A stretch of 64,000 bases of DNA, from NCBI GenBank assembly GCA_035544215.1, contig DATKHY010000007.1, positions 744,001-808,000 of the forward strand, given 5' to 3'. The position numbers and the translations under genes were made by a program. The DNA is from Candidatus Binatia bacterium (lineage in GTDB: Bacteria > Vulcanimicrobiota > Vulcanimicrobiia > Vulcanimicrobiales > Vulcanimicrobiaceae). The notes under the pieces were generated by a model. The model was not told the DNA's origin. It worked only from the letters and a program-made list of their open reading frames with translations, and searched no databases. Of the stretch, positions 35,556 to 63,590 are shown in pieces (position 1 is the stretch's first letter; every line of letters starts with the position of its first letter).

Positions 35556-35631
35556 GGGGATGTAGCTCAGCTGGTAGAGCACTTGCTTCGCATGTAAGGG
35601 GTCGGGGGTTCGAGTCCCCCCATCTCCACCA
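35556..35631 (+). tRNA. tRNA-Ala(CGC)
   Basis: A full cloverleaf of 76 nt with encoded CCA. The acceptor stem GGGGATG pairs with CATCTCC and includes the G3-U70 pair that alanyl-tRNA synthetase reads. The anticodon stem CTTGC/GTAAG encloses loop TTCGCAT, anticodon CGC at 35,589-35,591. The T arm is GGGGG-TTCGAGT-CCCCC. The 45 nt from the first base of the anticodon loop to CCA recur in whole or part at least six times in the next 28 kb, which marks this gene as the attachment site for integrating elements. Confidence 0.95.
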
Positions 35632-35634
35632 ATG

Positions 35635-35669
35635 AAGACGCCCGCTTCCTTTAGGGTTTCGGCGTTTTT
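35635..35669 (+). terminator. terminator after tRNA-Ala
   Basis: AAGACGCC pairs with GGCGTTTT (one G-U) around an 18-nt loop and runs into a T tract. Closely similar hairpins follow the tRNA fragments at 40,901, 43,590 and 46,894. Confidence 0.7.
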
Positions 35670-35981
35670 GTTTTCGCGCAAGACGAGGCAAAGCGCGGCG
35701 CTTGCGGAAGTCGATCTCGCGTAACCGCGTTCCGGGAGCCTTCGATTCTCGCATCTTCACCAGCGAAGATGCTTGATTGTGTAAGGAATTTCTGGCATTT
35801 TTGCGCGGTATTTTGAAGCTGTTCGCCGCACCGACCCCAATCGTACGACAATTGGGTTCGAGCGCCGCGAAGATCCGGTCGGCGGGTTGGGCGCCCCGCC
35901 TGGCCGTATGGTCGAACGGGGTGGCCGTAACGATCGAACATCATACGGGTGTCCGAAAATCCAAATTCTCGTTTACAGGGA
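35670..35981. other. gene-free stretch with a decayed tRNA 3' end
   Basis: No credible gene. At about 35,735-35,762 a sequence with a T-loop (TTCGATTC) and a CATCTTCACCA end resembles a worn copy of the tRNA-Ala 3' end, followed by another region like the tRNA terminator. A CGTACGACAATT motif at 35,843-35,854 recalls the 11-bp repeats beside later attachment copies. Confidence 0.4.
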
Positions 35982-40516: not shown

Positions 40517-40679
40517 AATCCGTTAGATTCTGGGTCCGGCGTCAAGAGCGCTGTGACGTCGCCCACACCCGATGTCGGGATCAAAGGGCCGCTCGGACTT
40601 GAGGACACCGTAAGCCAAAACCAGGAGGCAGCGCATCACTGCAGCGACGATTGACGCCGGACACAGAATCTAACGGATT
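40517..40679. repeat. 163-bp element with 29-bp terminal inverted repeats (MITE-like)
   Basis: The left end starts AATCCGTTAGATTCTGGGTC and continues to GTCAA at 40,545. The right end at 40,651-40,679 is its reverse complement with one mismatch in 29. No gene fits inside and no clear target-site duplication is seen. It may be a miniature transposable element or a large hairpin. Confidence 0.65.
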
Positions 40680-40750: not shown

Positions 40751-40809
40751 TGACGACCATTTGACGACCATTCTCGCGGAAAAGCGTGGAAATTCGCGGA
40801 AACTTCTGG
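40751..40809 (+). repeat. left arm of attachment copy B: 11-bp iterons plus GGAAA motif
   Basis: Two head-to-tail TGACGACCATT units (40,751-40,772) are followed by GGAAATTCGCGGAAACTTCT at 40,788. The latter 22-bp motif recurs with 20 matches at 61,275, again about 112 nt before a tRNA fragment. Confidence 0.6.
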
Positions 40810-40898
40810 AAACCCGGAATGCCGACAAACCTTGATGGTTATGAGACTTTGCGCCTTTTGCGGCCCTTTTTCGTGGAAGCGTCTTTTGCCCCAGAATC

Positions 40899-41097
40899 AC
40901 TTCGCATGTAAGGGGTCGGGGGTTCGAGTCCCCCCATCTCCACCAACCAAAACGCCTTACTCTGTAAGGGATTTTGGCGTTTTTGTTTCCGCGCAAGACA
41001 AATCAGGGCGCGCATACGGAACTTAGTCTTGCAGTGGCGCGTTCCAGCGGCCGAGGCTACGGATCAATCTGACTCCTTGCACGATGTGTAAGGGGTC
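40899..41097 (+). repeat. 199-bp direct repeat, copy 1
   Basis: From the tRNA fragment through the terminator to a second, weaker tRNA-like segment (TTGCACGATGTGTAAGG), this stretch matches 43,588-43,785 with one deleted base and one substitution. The two copies bound a 2.7-kb unit. Confidence 0.85.
40901..40945 (+). repeat. attachment copy B: tRNA-Ala 3' half, 45 nt exact
   Basis: Identical over 45 nt to tRNA-Ala from the anticodon loop (TTCGCATG) to CCA, while the bases to its left do not match the tRNA 5' half. It is followed by a perfect 8-bp AAAACGCC/GGCGTTTT terminator hairpin (40,949-40,983). Confidence 0.9.
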
Positions 41098-41261
41098 AGG
41101 TCCGAGTCTCTCCCATCTCCCCCGGGTTACGGCCGCGAATCGGCGAAGCCGGAGGCGCGGTGACGGGAGCCTGCGGTCGGCGCCATTAGTTAGCCAAACT
41201 AACGGTCCCGCCGTAACTAGCCCGATGCTTGTAGCGCCCTCGTGGGCTTGCTACCGCCTGA

Positions 41262-41500
41262 CTATTCCCAGTACATGGCCGTGGTGCTGTTGTAGTTCGG
41301 CCCGATGAGTATGTTGCCGGCAATCCAGAACTGGTAGGCGTAAAACGATCGTTTTAGGTTCAACTGGCCGCCGCTACTACGTGGGGGCTTGTAAATGTAG
41401 ATGATGCCGGTGCCCTTATCGCCAACGACGATGTGCTTTCCGTCCCATGCAACGCCGATCGGCTCACGTCGTACGCCTTGACCGTCCGTCTACTCTTCGC
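41262..41500 (-). pseudogene. C-terminal fragment of a secreted beta-propeller-like protein
   Basis: An open frame of about 80 codons ending in TAG reads REPIGVAWDGKHIVVGDKG, then GIIYIYKPP and a NSTTAMYWE end, with the pattern of a propeller or NHL-like surface protein. It has no start of its own, and its 5' side runs straight into the stop of the gene at 41,501. I take it as the remains of a larger gene cut off by an insertion. Confidence 0.55.
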
Positions 41501-42037
41501 CTATTTTGGCAAAACCTTACGGACCGTGCGTCCAAAGTTACTGTAATCGACTGTGCCCTCAGGGGTTACGAGACGATATGGGTAACCGTCGTTGCCGACG
41601 TAAAGTTCGAGCGTGCCGTGCGGCGTGGCGATTCGGTACATCTTTGCCGGCTTTCCGCTGGGAAGCGGCTTCCAACCGACGAGCGTGATCGCATCCGTGG
41701 CAAGCGCGCCATACGCCGGAGGAACGATATAGAGAATGCTCATCGTACCCGTGTAGCGTGTTTCTACGAACCCGTGTCCGTCATTATAATTGATGTATTG
41801 CTTACCGCCCGTAATGAGCGTGCTTGGACCGCCCTCCACTTTGCCGTAGGCGTAGCCTGGGGGCTCAACCAACCCGCTCTCCTTGCCCATTTTGTTCACA
41901 GAGACAAAATCCCATGAACCAGCAGCATTGGCTTTCTTGATGGCGGCGAGAACATCGTCCTTGGGGCTCGCGCTGACCGCTGCGGCAAATGCAGCGAAGA
42001 CTACGACAGTGGCAGCAAGTGTCGCAAGAATCCGCAT
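41501..42037 (-). CDS. secreted protein of unknown function
   Basis: A 178-residue protein with a signal peptide (ILATLAATVVVFAAFAAAVSA). The mature part has alternating strands (TYTGTMSILYIV-like, KMYRIATPHGTLELYVGNDG, YPYRLVTPEGTVDYSNFG), reminiscent of LolA-type lipoprotein carriers, but I cannot assign it. A GAGGTG ribosome site precedes the ATG. It is cargo of the 2.7-kb unit between attachment copies B and C. Confidence 0.7.
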   Translation of the reverse strand: MRILATLAATVVVFAAFAAAVSASPKDDVLAAIKKANAAGSWDFVSVNKMGKESGLVEPPGYAYGKVEGGPSTLITGGKQYINYNDGHGFVETRYTGTMSILYIVPPAYGALATDAITLVGWKPLPSGKPAKMYRIATPHGTLELYVGNDGYPYRLVTPEGTVDYSNFGRTVRKVLPK

Positions 42038-42262
42038 GGGGACACCTCACTTTTCCAGCGAAACTTCCCACTTATCGCGGCAAGCGCATCGATCCTTCGA
42101 TGCTGCGTGAAACGCCGCGGTCGGGGCAACGAGCGCTTTGTTGGGCCGCGCCTCGACCGCGAAGGGACGGCCATCATCTACAGCGTTACTAAGCCCTATT
42201 TATTGGGGCACTCAGGAGCAATCGACAATCGGGGGTCGTGTCCTATTTCCGCGAGGCTCTGA

Positions 42263-42409
42263 GTACCTAGCCCCGCATGGACCTACGCCTGCGGCATCGA
42301 CCGGAGCCAGCCCTACAGCGACGAGGCACCGCCGATCGGCAGCGTGGCCGCGGAGCGGTTGGCGGAGGTGGCTTTCGAGACCGCGGCGTGGGTGCTACGA
42401 TGGAACTGA
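42263..42409 (+). pseudogene. C-terminal gene fragment
   Basis: A GC-rich run of about 48 codons between two stops reads WTYACGIDRSQPYSDEAPP, then ERLAEVAFETAAWVLRWN and TGA. It looks protein-like, unlike its surroundings, but has no start and I cannot name the family. Confidence 0.35.
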
Positions 42410-42516
42410 TTGCGAACTCATAAAAGTCGATCAAAGCCGCAAGAAAAGGATTCCAGCGGCTGGCGCATCGCCAAATTGGAATGGAAGTAGTCACTTCTTC
42501 CGCGACAAAGGACACC

Positions 42517-43050
42517 ATGCAGAACATCTCCACACTACTATTGCTGTTGCTTATAGCTCAAGCTTCGGCGACGAGTATTAGCGCGACTTTGAGCGCGCCA
42601 AAGCCAACCGTATTCCAAGCAAACGAGGGGGACCGCTGGTTGTTGCTTGGCAACAAACCCCTGATTTTTAAAGTAGACCCGGTCAGCACGGGATCCAATA
42701 CACTGATCGTGGGCACCGAAGTCATGCCGCCTGGAAACAAGATCCCAACGCACAAGCATCTGCACGAGGACGAAGTTCTATTCATTCATGAGGGTATGGT
42801 CCGTGTTACGCTCGCTGGGCGACGATACGAAGCAGGAACGGGCGCGACTGTGTTCATTCCACGTGGAAACTGGATAGGAATCGAGAACGCATCGGACAAA
42901 ACGGCAACGATCGTATTCATTTTTAACAAACCAGCCTTTGAGCGCTGTCTACGCGCAATCTCGTCACGGCCCGGTCAGACATTCACGATGCCTGCTCCTG
43001 CGAAAATGGCGAGCATCCGCGCCCACTGCGACGAAGTGATGAGGGACTGA
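42517..43050 (+). CDS. secreted cupin-domain protein
   Basis: A 177-residue protein with a signal peptide (STLLLLLLIAQASATSI) and a cupin_2 domain: PPGNKIPTHKHLHEDEVLFI is the first metal motif (His, His, Glu), EGMVRVTLAGRRYEAGTGAT and FIPRGNWIGIEN complete it. The ATG giving MQNIST was preferred because of the signal peptide and an AAAGGA ribosome site. Two cysteines lie in the C-terminal helix. It is the second gene of the unit between copies B and C. Confidence 0.85.
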   Translation: MQNISTLLLLLLIAQASATSISATLSAPKPTVFQANEGDRWLLLGNKPLIFKVDPVSTGSNTLIVGTEVMPPGNKIPTHKHLHEDEVLFIHEGMVRVTLAGRRYEAGTGATVFIPRGNWIGIENASDKTATIVFIFNKPAFERCLRAISSRPGQTFTMPAPAKMASIRAHCDEVMRD

Positions 43051-43441
43051 AGTTCGCGAACGAAATCTGTCGCTGTTGTGCTAAAGCTACCCGTCGTATC
43101 TTTGGCGACGATTCACGCAGCCCAGCGCGTAGCGGCGACCGCGGCATTTGCCACTTAGCTGGAACTGAGCCGCGCCGAACGCTAGCCAAGCACTGCAGCG
43201 TTCATGCAGCAAGGGGGCAACGGCAATGATGAGTCGAAGCTTTGGCTACGCTCTTAGCACCTGCTCCAGCACGGCATTACGCCGAAGCCCAGAACAGTAC
43301 GCGACTGCTGCGAGCCTACCACGCCCGGGCCCAGCTGAGCGGTGGTCACCGACCTCGCAGGACGGCATGGGGCCTGCCGATGGTTTTCGGATCGCATAGC
43401 GGCCGCCTCGCGCTGCCAGACTAAGCTGGCGCCCGACACCG
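43051..43441. other. gene-free stretch before attachment copy C
   Basis: Only short frames without family resemblance or ribosome sites. Nothing that I can support as a gene. Confidence 0.4.
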
Positions 43442-43480
43442 TACGACAATCTTACGACAATTCGCGCGGAAACTGGCGGA
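43442..43480 (+). repeat. left arm of attachment copy C: 11-bp iterons
   Basis: TACGACAATCT and TACGACAATTC stand head to tail (43,442-43,463), then GCGCGGAAACTGGCGG. The layout matches the left arm of copy B. Confidence 0.6.
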
Positions 43481-43587
43481 AAGCGCGAACGCTGGTGAAC
43501 GAAAAATCGGCCACAAAAGCGTGACATAGCAACGAAATCGGGCTATTTCTTTGGTTTCGTACGCACTTGAGGCTTCGAGCGTCGTTT

Positions 43588-43785
43588 ACTTCGCATGTAA
43601 GGGGTCGGGGGTTCGAGTCCCCCATCTCCACCAACCAAAACGCCTTACTCTGTAAGGGATTTTGGCGTTTTTGTTTCCGCGCAAGACAAATCGGGGCGCG
43701 CATACGGAACTTAGTCTTGCAGTGGCGCGTTCCAGCGGCCGAGGCTACGGATCAATCTGACTCCTTGCACGATGTGTAAGGGGTC
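43588..43785 (+). repeat. 199-bp direct repeat, copy 2, with attachment copy C
   Basis: Contains the tRNA-Ala 3' half at 43,590-43,633 (one C lost from the T-arm run), the same perfect terminator hairpin and the second tRNA-like segment. Nearly identical to 40,899-41,097. Confidence 0.85.
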
Positions 43786-43803
43786 GGGGTTCGAGTCCCC
43801 CAA
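43768..43803 (+). repeat. second tRNA-like 3' segment after copy C
   Basis: CTTGCACGATGTGTAAGGGG followed by a good T arm (GGGG-TTCGAGT-CCCC). It keeps an anticodon-stem shape but lacks U33 and an acceptor match, so it is a relic rather than a tRNA. Similar segments follow copies B and D. Confidence 0.5.
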
Positions 43804-43848
43804 CCACTAGATAACGCCCCGCTTTCACAAGCTTTCTCGGATCGGTGC

Positions 43849-43899
43849 GTGATTTTCTGAAACCGCCGGCTTCGTTTCGACGACCATTTGACGACCAAT
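43849..43899 (+). repeat. right-arm sequence with two 11-bp iterons
   Basis: TGATTTTCTGAAACCGCCGG, then CGACGACCATT and TGACGACCAAT head to tail. A closely similar block follows attachment copy E at 56,749-56,798, at the same distance from the tRNA-derived segment. Confidence 0.6.
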
Positions 43900-44236
43900 C
43901 TGCACGGTCTCGAAAACGCGATCCATCGTCTCGGCTCTCAGTCAACGGCGCATGCGCAAGTACAAGATATGTGACAGTAGATCTGCTTTGAGGGGGTTGG
44001 CGAGCGCAAAACCGCCCCCTCTGCTGGGCCGGCAATGCGGCGATGATCTGCGCGCCGCGATCCAAACCGCGAGACTGCGAGCCGCTGCGAGGTACAGTTC
44101 TCGTAGTGCGAGGCGCTGTGCGCTTTGCGATCAGCGCGGTGCTGCGCAGCTGCGAGGCCTCTAATTGTGCTAAGCGCCCAGCACGATGCGCGCGTGATGC
44201 GGCGCGGTGCAGGTCGGCTGTGGGGTAGAGGCGCGG
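43900..44236. other. gene-free stretch downstream of the arylsulfatase
   Basis: Short frames only; repetitive GCGAGG-rich sequence near 44,060-44,160. No gene supported. Confidence 0.4.
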
Positions 44237-46857: not shown

Positions 46858-46893
46858 TGATACAGCAAGGGCCGGGCCAATCGATCTCCCTGC

Positions 46894-46938
46894 TTCGCAT
46901 GTAAGGGGTCGGGGGTTCGAGTCCGCCCATCTCCACCA
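46894..46938 (+). repeat. attachment copy D: tRNA-Ala 3' half, one mismatch
   Basis: 45 nt matching tRNA-Ala from the anticodon loop to CCA except one C-to-G change in the T arm; the match extends three bases (TGC) into the anticodon stem. The sequence after it closely resembles that after the intact tRNA, including the terminator. Confidence 0.9.
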
Positions 46939-47429
46939 TTGAAAACGCGCGATTCCTTTAGGGATTTCGGCGTTTTTCTTTTTTGCTGCAAGACCAAGGG
47001 GAACACGCATAGGGAGGTTGGTGCTGGAGTAGCCGCATTCCAGCAGCGGAGGTCAAAGATTAATCCGACTCCTTGCACAACGTGTAAGGGGCCGGCGTTC
47101 GAGCCCTGCCGGGAAGGCGATGCACGCCGCAACGCGTTAAGTGCAGTGATCTGAGCTGCTGCGCTTGCGAGGCAACGGCGAGCTAAGCCGCCGCTGTGTG
47201 AGGCGCTCGAAATCTGCAATCCGATCTGAGCGTTTTTGCCGCAGCGACCTCTAGAGCGCGAATGCCGGAGGGAGGGGCTGTCAGCCCTTTAGCGCGGACG
47301 GACAGAACCTGGGTCGCACGAAAAGGCGCGCTTGATTCAGTCTCAGCTGACTTTCGAGCAAGTGCTACGAAGCTTTCCTTTGACATCGTAGTACTGACCC
47401 AACGGTCTTGTATGACTGGTTCGAATACG
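46939..47429. other. gene-free stretch with a worn tRNA-like segment
   Basis: At 47,078-47,112 TGCACAACGTGTAAGGGG and a damaged T arm parallel the second segments after copies B and C. The rest holds no supported gene. Confidence 0.4.
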
Positions 47430-56625: not shown

Positions 56626-56664
56626 CTCTAATATAACAAGCTTTTGCTGGACCGGATTTGTTGC

Positions 56665-56705
56665 TTCGCATGTAAGGGGTCGGGGTTAGACCCCCATCTC
56701 CACCA
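56665..56705 (+). repeat. attachment copy E: worn tRNA-Ala 3' half
   Basis: TTCGCATGTAAGGGGTCGGG is exact, then the T loop has lost bases (GGTTAGACC) before CCCATCTCCACCA. As in copy D, the match extends three bases into the anticodon stem (TGC). Confidence 0.85.
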
Positions 56706-61386: not shown

Positions 61387-61430
61387 TTCGCATGTAAGGG
61401 GTCGGGGTTCGAGTCCCCCCATCTCCACCA
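61387..61430 (+). repeat. attachment copy F: tRNA-Ala 3' half
   Basis: 44 nt from the anticodon loop to CCA with one G missing from the T-arm run. The sequence after it (ACGCGCCGATTTCATTAGCT) resembles that after copy E. Confidence 0.9.
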
Positions 61431-61485: not shown

Positions 61486-61584
61486 AGGGTATTCGTTGTA
61501 CGGTTTTGCGGTTTACGAAGATTCCCTGACGGCGCAGTGTCGCCCAGACCATCCGATAACCGAGATATGTATGCGAGGCTCTTG
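61486..61584 (-). mobile_element. IS3-family transposase fragment
   Basis: A short frame reads HTYLGYRMVWATLRRQGIFV then NRKTVQRI, the HTH_21 segment that opens the OrfB transposase of IS3-type elements (YGYRRV...LRRQG...VNRKRVQRL). Only this part remains, between copy F and the multicopper oxidase gene. Confidence 0.65.
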
Positions 61585-63448: not shown

Positions 63449-63560
63449 AGGAACGACGGTTCTTCCAGCTACGGTGTGGTCTTCGTGGTGAGCACGTCAG
63501 GCAAGGAGCATGTGCTCTATCGCTTCAAGGGTGGCAGAGACGGCGAGTTCCGCCCGAACG
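63449..63560 (+). pseudogene. GloVer-repeat gene fragment ending at a tRNA fragment
   Basis: The plus strand reads NDGSSSYGVVFVVSTSGKEH then VLYRFKGGRDGEF, the same repeat core as the GloVer protein encoded at 47,949. The match stops exactly where tRNA-Ala sequence begins, so a GloVer gene seems to have been cut by integration or deletion at this site. Confidence 0.65.
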
Positions 63561-63590
63561 GTCGGGGATTCGAGTCCCCCGTCTCCACCA
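63561..63590 (+). repeat. attachment copy G: partial tRNA-Ala 3' end
   Basis: GTCGGGGATTCGAGTCCCCC then GTCTCCACCA: T arm and acceptor end with two changes, lacking the anticodon part. A terminator-like CGCG...CGCGTTTTTG region and a TACGACAATCG iteron (63,665) follow. Confidence 0.7.

Follow-up and report, generated by a model that had tools for sequence, protein, structure and literature searches.

According to the available portions of the Islander report (PMC4383910), a genomic island is recognized by an intact tDNA with a displaced 3' fragment in the same orientation, a class of crossovers centred on the anticodon exists, and integrases that extend across attP are known. The same portions state that an integrase is required in each island and that four tandems of three or more were found in 2168 genomes. 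tRNA fragments from such insertions are widespread, as stated in the accessible part of PMC9897764. For CIMEs, the accessible part of PMC5704250 describes a course of integration, decay to a CIME, and then accretion of a newcomer.

The locus described here lies in a window that comprises the whole 64,000-nucleotide stretch of DNA analysed. It has the Islander geometry, with an intact tDNA and a downstream 3' fragment on the same strand, and its six units, A to F, have lengths within the Islander range of 2–200 kb: the repeat spacing of unit B is 2,688 bp, the other units measure 2.1–9.7 kb by core positions, and four of the six are 2–5 kb. The integrase within the island is lacking; the window holds no match to PF00589, only C-terminal integrase relics and tails detected by tblastn, and the Islander filter would therefore reject the array. 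Methods that demand an integrase would miss such arrays. Given the four tandems found under the stricter Islander rules, the present array is long with its six displaced cores, yet of a known kind. A limited search of the literature found no published report of this tRNA-Ala array.

Unit B resembles the elements described in the accessible parts of PMC5704250 and PMC8978831, which lack integration genes, lie between attachment sites and are stacked at the 3' end of one target gene. A CIME has lost its integration and transfer genes, and a scan of the two main products of unit B gave no integrase match. With regard to attL and attR, unit B has cores on both sides and a right-hand pair of sites, but no left-hand pair was found. 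With regard to descent from an ICE or IME, which may or may not apply, its right end resembles right ends in two related genomes (G005 and G001), and no conjugation genes were seen among the products scanned. The locus differs from a CIME in that six units are present and that unit B is without left-hand sites.

Integron cassette arrays are rows of small cargo units with recombination sites between them, on one side of a fixed gene. The present array likewise consists of small units split by recombination sites beside a fixed gene, but its sites are tRNA 3' ends with paired sites of the tyrosine-integrase type, its units are relics, and it contains no integrase match. We regard it as very probable that the locus is a tandem-accretion array of integrase-less, CIME-like islands at the 3' end of tRNA-Ala(CGC), in which a 199-bp repeat around unit B is a compound attachment-site scar.

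The tRNA-Ala target and its displaced 3' ends

The window contains a single intact tRNA gene, a tRNA-Ala(CGC) identified by ARAGORN at 35,556–35,631 on the + strand, which is the proposed integration target with a regenerated attB. Within 28 kb downstream of it, a tRNA search recovered six displaced tRNA-Ala 3' ends that share its + strand and begin at 40,900, 43,586, 46,891, 56,661, 61,387, and 63,560. These cores, r1 to r6, bound the six units together with the tRNA. Core r1 (40,900–40,945) comprises tRNA positions 31–76 at 100%, and core r2 (43,586–43,633) has a 1-bp deletion in the T arm. Cores r3 (46,891–46,938), r4 (56,661–56,705), and r5 (61,387–61,430) follow, and r6 (63,560–63,590) is the last recognizable core, as the tRNA search detected no further core in the 38 kb beyond it. 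A 26-bp core, with up to three mismatches allowed, gave four matches in the window and none in 100 shuffles, and a chance origin of the core copies is excluded.

Behind four of the tRNA 3' ends lies a related segment that leads to a second, degraded core; one of the four second cores was recognized by the search (at 43,775), and the other three (at about 35,735, 41,080, and 47,079) were placed by eye. At the tRNA itself, the left-end and terminator segment m0 (35,632–35,761, + strand) folds into a hairpin and includes only the 3' part of a degraded second core, read by eye; it matches m1 to m3 at 84–90% over 103–113 columns, core included. Segment m1 (40,946–41,079, + strand) carries a hairpin with a T-run and the tail of a type I integrase frame, the latter detected by tblastn, and extends to its degraded second core at 41,080–41,121 (+ strand). 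Its near-identical twin by alignment, m2 (43,634–43,774, + strand), is followed by the second core at 43,775–43,812 (+ strand), which forms the left edge of unit C. Segment m3 with its second core (46,939–47,117, + strand) matches m1 and m2 at 78% over 199–214 columns, core included.

A search with tRNA-Ala gave ten matches in the genome beyond the tRNA itself; at the same threshold, the 3' 60 bases of tRNA-Glu, used as a control, gave one extra partial match, and tRNA-Ser(UGA) gave two of unchecked nature. Among the ten, C7:54567 matches the query from its very first base and is probably a further tRNA gene. In the genus, 28 of 34 partial tRNA-Ala matches begin at tRNA positions 28–33, that is, in the anticodon stem-loop. 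Crossover sublocations were reportedly described by Williams in 2002. Among the loci read, 10 of 14 intact tRNA-Ala copies, the window's included, are 100% identical over positions 1–76.

The repeat pair and the content of unit B

The preliminary description had reported near-identical 199-bp direct repeats around a unit of 2.7 kb. Global alignment of 40,899–41,097 (199 nt) with 43,588–43,785 (198 nt) indeed gives one substitution and one 1-bp gap, and a local alignment extends to 41,108/43,797 with 97.6% over 211 columns. The composition given there for the repeat, namely tRNA fragment, terminator and second tRNA-like segment, was also recovered. A perfect 46-bp copy of the tRNA-Ala(CGC) 3' half starts one base inside the left edge of the first repeat, the corresponding half in the second repeat bears the T-arm deletion of r2, and in the fold a hairpin and then a T-run follow 3' of the first core; the minimum-energy fold of m1 and m2 is an alternative hairpin to which the T-run is not adjacent. 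The right edge of the 199-bp identity falls inside the degraded second copy of the tRNA 3' half, which in the second repeat (43,775–43,801) matches tRNA positions 38–65 at 96%.

Two further copies were overlooked in that description, which understated the copy number: a third at 46,893–47,106 with 78% identity, and a fourth, incomplete one where the intact tRNA lies (35,583–35,697; 84–90%, core included). The repeat is thus one station of a longer array, in which the two repeats around unit B are the most alike pair.

We interpret the repeat, which corresponds to m, as a small segment between elements with a core at each side, that is, as a compound attachment-site scar made of a core, a type I terminator and integrase tail, about 110 bp of further sequence, and a degraded second core. 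Its left part has a counterpart, since m2 matches the left end of an intact type I element in G007 at 91% over 93 bp, core included. For the roughly 110 bp ahead of the second core, the sole outside match among the loci compared is in G014:C127 (80% over 112 bp), and this match may in turn be a further copy of the scar. Beyond it, the stretch at 43,775–43,898, composed of the second core of m2 and a type II left end, matches core r4 with the left end of unit E at 77% over 129 columns.

Unit B spans about 40,946–43,587, with a cargo region at 41,110–43,587 that has no integrase domain match. Both enclosed genes of the preliminary description, for a secreted protein and a cupin, are present as open reading frames. 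The first encodes a 178-aa protein (41,501–42,037, − strand) that appears to be secreted, as judged by reading from its signal-peptide-like start; it has no Pfam or NCBIfam match, and of 41 genomes only that of the window (G000) was found to carry it. The second encodes a 189-aa protein (42,481–43,050, + strand) with a Cupin_2 domain (PF07883, E 3e-14). PF00589 was not matched in unit B, and Pfam searches of these two main products gave cupin-type matches and nothing else.

Element ends and integrases in the array and its relatives

Arm sites are known for lambda-type integrases. By analogy, we regard as candidate arm sites, which an integrase may bind, the pairs of 8-bp sites spaced 11 bp apart that occur at the element ends as type I (ACGACAAT) and type II (GACGACCA). 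A third kind of paired site, TGGGGAGAA, has a different spacing and lies nearer the core. Intact elements of types I and II have their left pair +71 to +75 behind the core, and where a displaced core has a right pair, it stands at about −191 from that core.

The right end of unit A (40,751–40,899, + strand) is of type II, with sites at 40,752 and 40,763. At 83–92%, it matches the corresponding stretch ahead of Ala cores in G003 (two), G010, G014, and G016; the last 149 bp match one G003 copy, G010 and G016 in this range, and 230-bp matches reach 87% for the other G003 copy and 84% for G014. The right end of unit B (43,437–43,587, + strand) is of type I, with sites at 43,443 and 43,454 and zero mismatches. 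Its last 149–156 bp recur ahead of Ala cores, with 72–83% identity in five places of G005 and, over 137 bp, with 77% in one place of G001, and a 79% copy in G017:C79 stands where the contig ends at the point at which a core would start. With up to two mismatches allowed, no left pair follows either core r1 or the second core of unit B. Core r4 is preceded by a type III pair and followed by a type II pair with two mismatches. In units A and C, the left and right site types differ, which requires the assumption that neighbours have undergone deletions or exchanges.

Across the loci compared, right pairs with up to two mismatches were present at 16 of 37 fragment rows versus 0 of 14 intact tRNAs; for left pairs, the counts were 9 of 37 fragment rows and 4 of 14 intact tRNAs. 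These counts leave out L069, in which the tRNA is cut by a contig end, and L114, and they include the three second cores placed by eye. No right pair was found at 21 of the 37 fragment rows, although in four cases the contig ends at the fragment and leaves no sequence in which a pair could be seen, and the left pair was not found at 28. As a control, the 35 kb ahead of the array contain no paired site on either strand. The pattern of right sites plus core had 10 matches in 7 of 99 family genomes, compared with matches in 0 of 99 for the reversed pattern. The exact 41-bp repeat pattern had no match in genome_contigs, from which the window's own genome may be absent.

In 11 genomes, an intact tRNA-Ala locus was read and integrases were searched: a PF00589 integrase lies directly behind the tRNA and points at it in three (G007, G008, and G016), and is absent there in the other eight. 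Full-length integrases of 417–424 codons are found directly 3' of the intact tRNA-Ala in G007, G008, and L123. Those of G007 and G008 carry Phage_integrase and SAM-like N-terminal domains, and their frames read through the tRNA-Ala core. In L123 (Candidatus Eremiobacterota, palsa_1529), which like the other relatives named by record (L124 and L138) was drawn from the best 80 of 131 loci, the intact tRNA overlaps a 424-codon frame that is 71–72% identical to the G007 integrase. The full integrases found directly behind a core are located at an intact tRNA (G007, G008, G016, and L123) or at a contig edge (G014:C145 and L124). Behind displaced cores in G001, G003, G005, and G011, the integrases are partial or broken. 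This placement is compatible with insertion at the tRNA and subsequent decay.

Decayed integrases are also visible in the window. At the left end of unit A, the relic of a type I tyrosine integrase C terminus (35,719–35,962, − strand) was detected by tblastn with the G007 protein at 35,916–35,719 (E 2.5e-15, 58% over 67 columns), with a weaker segment from 35,962 (E 2.3e-10). A type II C-terminal relic at 43,822–43,935 (− strand), which includes a pair of left arm sites (43,879 and 43,890), was detected with the G008 protein (E 5.6e-8, 66% over 38 columns). In addition, tblastn gave type I tails at 40,997–40,899 (E 1e-11), 43,685–43,585 (E 1e-8), 47,008–46,889 (E 5e-9), and, after core r6, 63,679–63,560 (E 1.6e-4), and a type II tail after core r5 at 61,545–61,405 (E 9e-7), partly inside the core. 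Since integrase frame and tRNA overlap, the tails match partly within the core; the relics at 35,916–35,719 and 43,935–43,822, which lie outside the first cores, are the stronger evidence. For annotation, this calls for caution: open reading frames across these cores (…MGGLEPPTPYMRS…) translate the ends of tRNAs, and nothing but the C terminus of an integrase is real in them. The left pair, too, at +71 to +86 from the core, is part of the integrase frame, so that loss of the integrase end removes the left pair as well.

In a comparison set of one genome per species, 13 units had their bounding cores on the same contig: six in the window, three on two contigs of G005, and one each in G001, G003, G010, and G033. 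PF00589 was matched in 0 of these 13, with sub-threshold relics in units A and C. A fourteenth bounded unit, of about 4.5 kb in L138, contains about 80 residues of an integrase at 75–83%, among the best 80 of 131 loci. Neither an excised element nor an empty site was observed. In L074 and L075, whose contigs are incomplete, there was no conjugation or mobilization gene among ten products scanned.

Origin and present mobility of unit B

These observations suggest the following course. Small integrative elements with tyrosine integrases would have entered the 3' end of tRNA-Ala(CGC) repeatedly, making it a hotspot. At each insertion, the incoming element would have restored the tRNA with the 3' half that it carries and displaced the older 3' half as a fragment. 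The integrases would then have decayed to relics or tails in all six units, leaving stranded remnants that may have lost mobility, and unit B is probably one such remnant with a genuine type I right end. That the scar is present twice may reflect two elements or composites with the same left-hand scar side by side; most simply, a composite of scar and unit B would have integrated beside one of scar and unit C. Successive integration, accretion and decay, and the order of these events, are what we infer from the arrangement of cores, sites and relics.

Candidatus Eremiobacterota have few cultured members. A repeat that looked isolated may offer a readable fossil record of repeated island insertion in relatives of this poorly known group. 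It also provides a precise attachment site and candidate arm sites for at least two kinds of integrase, which might serve in a laboratory test or as an integration tool.

The preliminary description had proposed that the young repeats could recombine to release a circle. Unit B would then still be an active circle-former, served by an integrase in trans from a passing or resident element, or by RecA across the repeats. The repeats, near-identical over their tRNA 3' ends and only one substitution and one gap apart in 199 bp, are in accord with this proposal, as are the nearly perfect cores r1 and r2 and the intact right pair, and RecA could in principle act on 199 bp. Judged by sequence, a circle could therefore form from unit B by homologous recombination, and the unit might be lost in this manner. 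What is not supported is that the repeats as such make a self-releasing unit, as they are attachment-site scars in a series of a tRNA and six displaced cores, and unit B has right-hand but no left-hand sites and no integrase match. Five integrases above the PF00589 cut-off are encoded in the whole genome. Four of them match the two tRNA-Ala-using kinds (types I and II) at 25–44% in the best segments, the 44% being that of a 41-residue segment, and the fifth, C7:533355, has no match to either at E 1e-5. The tRNA genes in the stretches around the resident integrases are Ser, Ser, and Gln/Glu, with none for the one on C3. With the left pair missing and resident integrases this distant or unmatched, integrase-driven release of unit B at present is unlikely. 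In viral_contigs, exact patterns of right sites plus core had no match, which says little for this host, and relatives of the type I integrase there are distant, at most 33% (39 loci), so that they argue neither for nor against a phage nature of the elements. Overall, we consider an active circle-former improbable, though the least so of the alternatives.

A slightly less probable reading concerns the role of m, which might be a portable docking module rather than a dead scar. It would consist of a left adaptor of about 180 bp, a core at each end and the tRNA terminator, with the second core as the place where different cargo units are exchanged; a site-specific swap of the cargo of units B and C would then explain why m1 and m2 cease to be identical inside that core, and the result would be a tRNA-anchored cassette array. 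If this were true, the array would partly resemble an integron, yet be built from integrase islands.

We also looked for a non-autonomous cassette system with an integrase acting in trans. Such a system needs integrase-free units with matching left and right pairs, and 0 of the 13 bounded units are of this kind; unit E comes nearest, with a left type II pair with two mismatches and a right end assigned to type II only by 72% similarity.

It is also conceivable that the 199-bp segment is the native flank of tRNA-Ala, multiplied by ordinary tandem duplication, and that the units are the DNA between copies. Each of the four copies lies directly 3' of a tRNA-Ala 3' end, and the G014 homologue ends in a core. 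Against this, most cores in the window are preceded by right-end families common to cores of other species, and among 61 family genomes, a draw that did not contain G014, a 155-bp segment was matched over more than 44 bp in G000 only. Furthermore, the sequence downstream of the 14 intact tRNA-Ala loci is unlike any other read in seven and falls into one class with displaced cores in the other seven, so that no common native flank is seen. We judge this origin to be quite improbable. A composite transposon or IS pair, to which the cargo genes between direct repeats might point, can be dismissed almost entirely, as the 199-bp repeat is too short for a transposase gene, no transposase of a flanking IS was found among 20 array ORF products scanned, and the repeat edges lie within tRNA cores.

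An array of integrase-less islands at the tRNA-Ala gene thus accounts best for the locus. The base composition changes at the same place: G+C falls from 0.65–0.70 to 0.56–0.62 at the tRNA and stays at 0.56–0.64 through the following 38 kb, past the array, so that the region of low G+C is longer than the recognizable array.

Further tRNA-Ala 3' ends in the same genome

The genome to which the window belongs (G000) contains further tRNA-Ala 3' ends on contig C1, at C1:190201 and C1:238153 (loci L030:3871-4708 and L031:11821-12653), spaced about 48 kb apart. No tRNA gene was found around them in the two surrounding stretches. By alignment, both are enclosed in a repeat of 844 columns with 86% identity, and at the left of each lies a type III pair of candidate arm sites. 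Perhaps these 3' ends are the two termini of another island, or a part of the hotspot that has moved away.

Neighbors of intact integrases and probably undercounted arrays in relatives

In G007, the intact type I integrase has two neighbors (L074:4207-6616): an HTH_17 protein, which is a candidate for a directionality factor, and an ATPase of the AAA_15/DUF3696 type. ATPases of this kind are frequent in defence systems. In G008, a 374-amino acid protein matching Cas1 (PF01867, E 2.6e-26; L075:9703-10827) is located about 6 kb away from the intact type II integrase.

If assemblies break at multicopy cores, contig ends inside the tRNA-Ala gene or core are to be expected, and several contigs of relatives start or stop there (G003:C2, G003:C16, G010:C24, G014:C46, and G014:C145). 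Counts for arrays on the contigs of G003, G010, and G014 that are cut in this way are probably too low.

Small repeats in units A and B

Unit A contains, close to its right end, two inverted 29-bp copies (97%; window positions 40517-40545 and 40651-40679) that enclose 105 nt and resemble the termini of a small nonautonomous transposon. Positions 42223-42409 of unit B, judged by sequence similarity, are possibly a dispersed short repeat: similar pieces of 71-185 bp (72-86%) occur in G014, G005, and G010 as well as on contigs C4 and C9 of G000.
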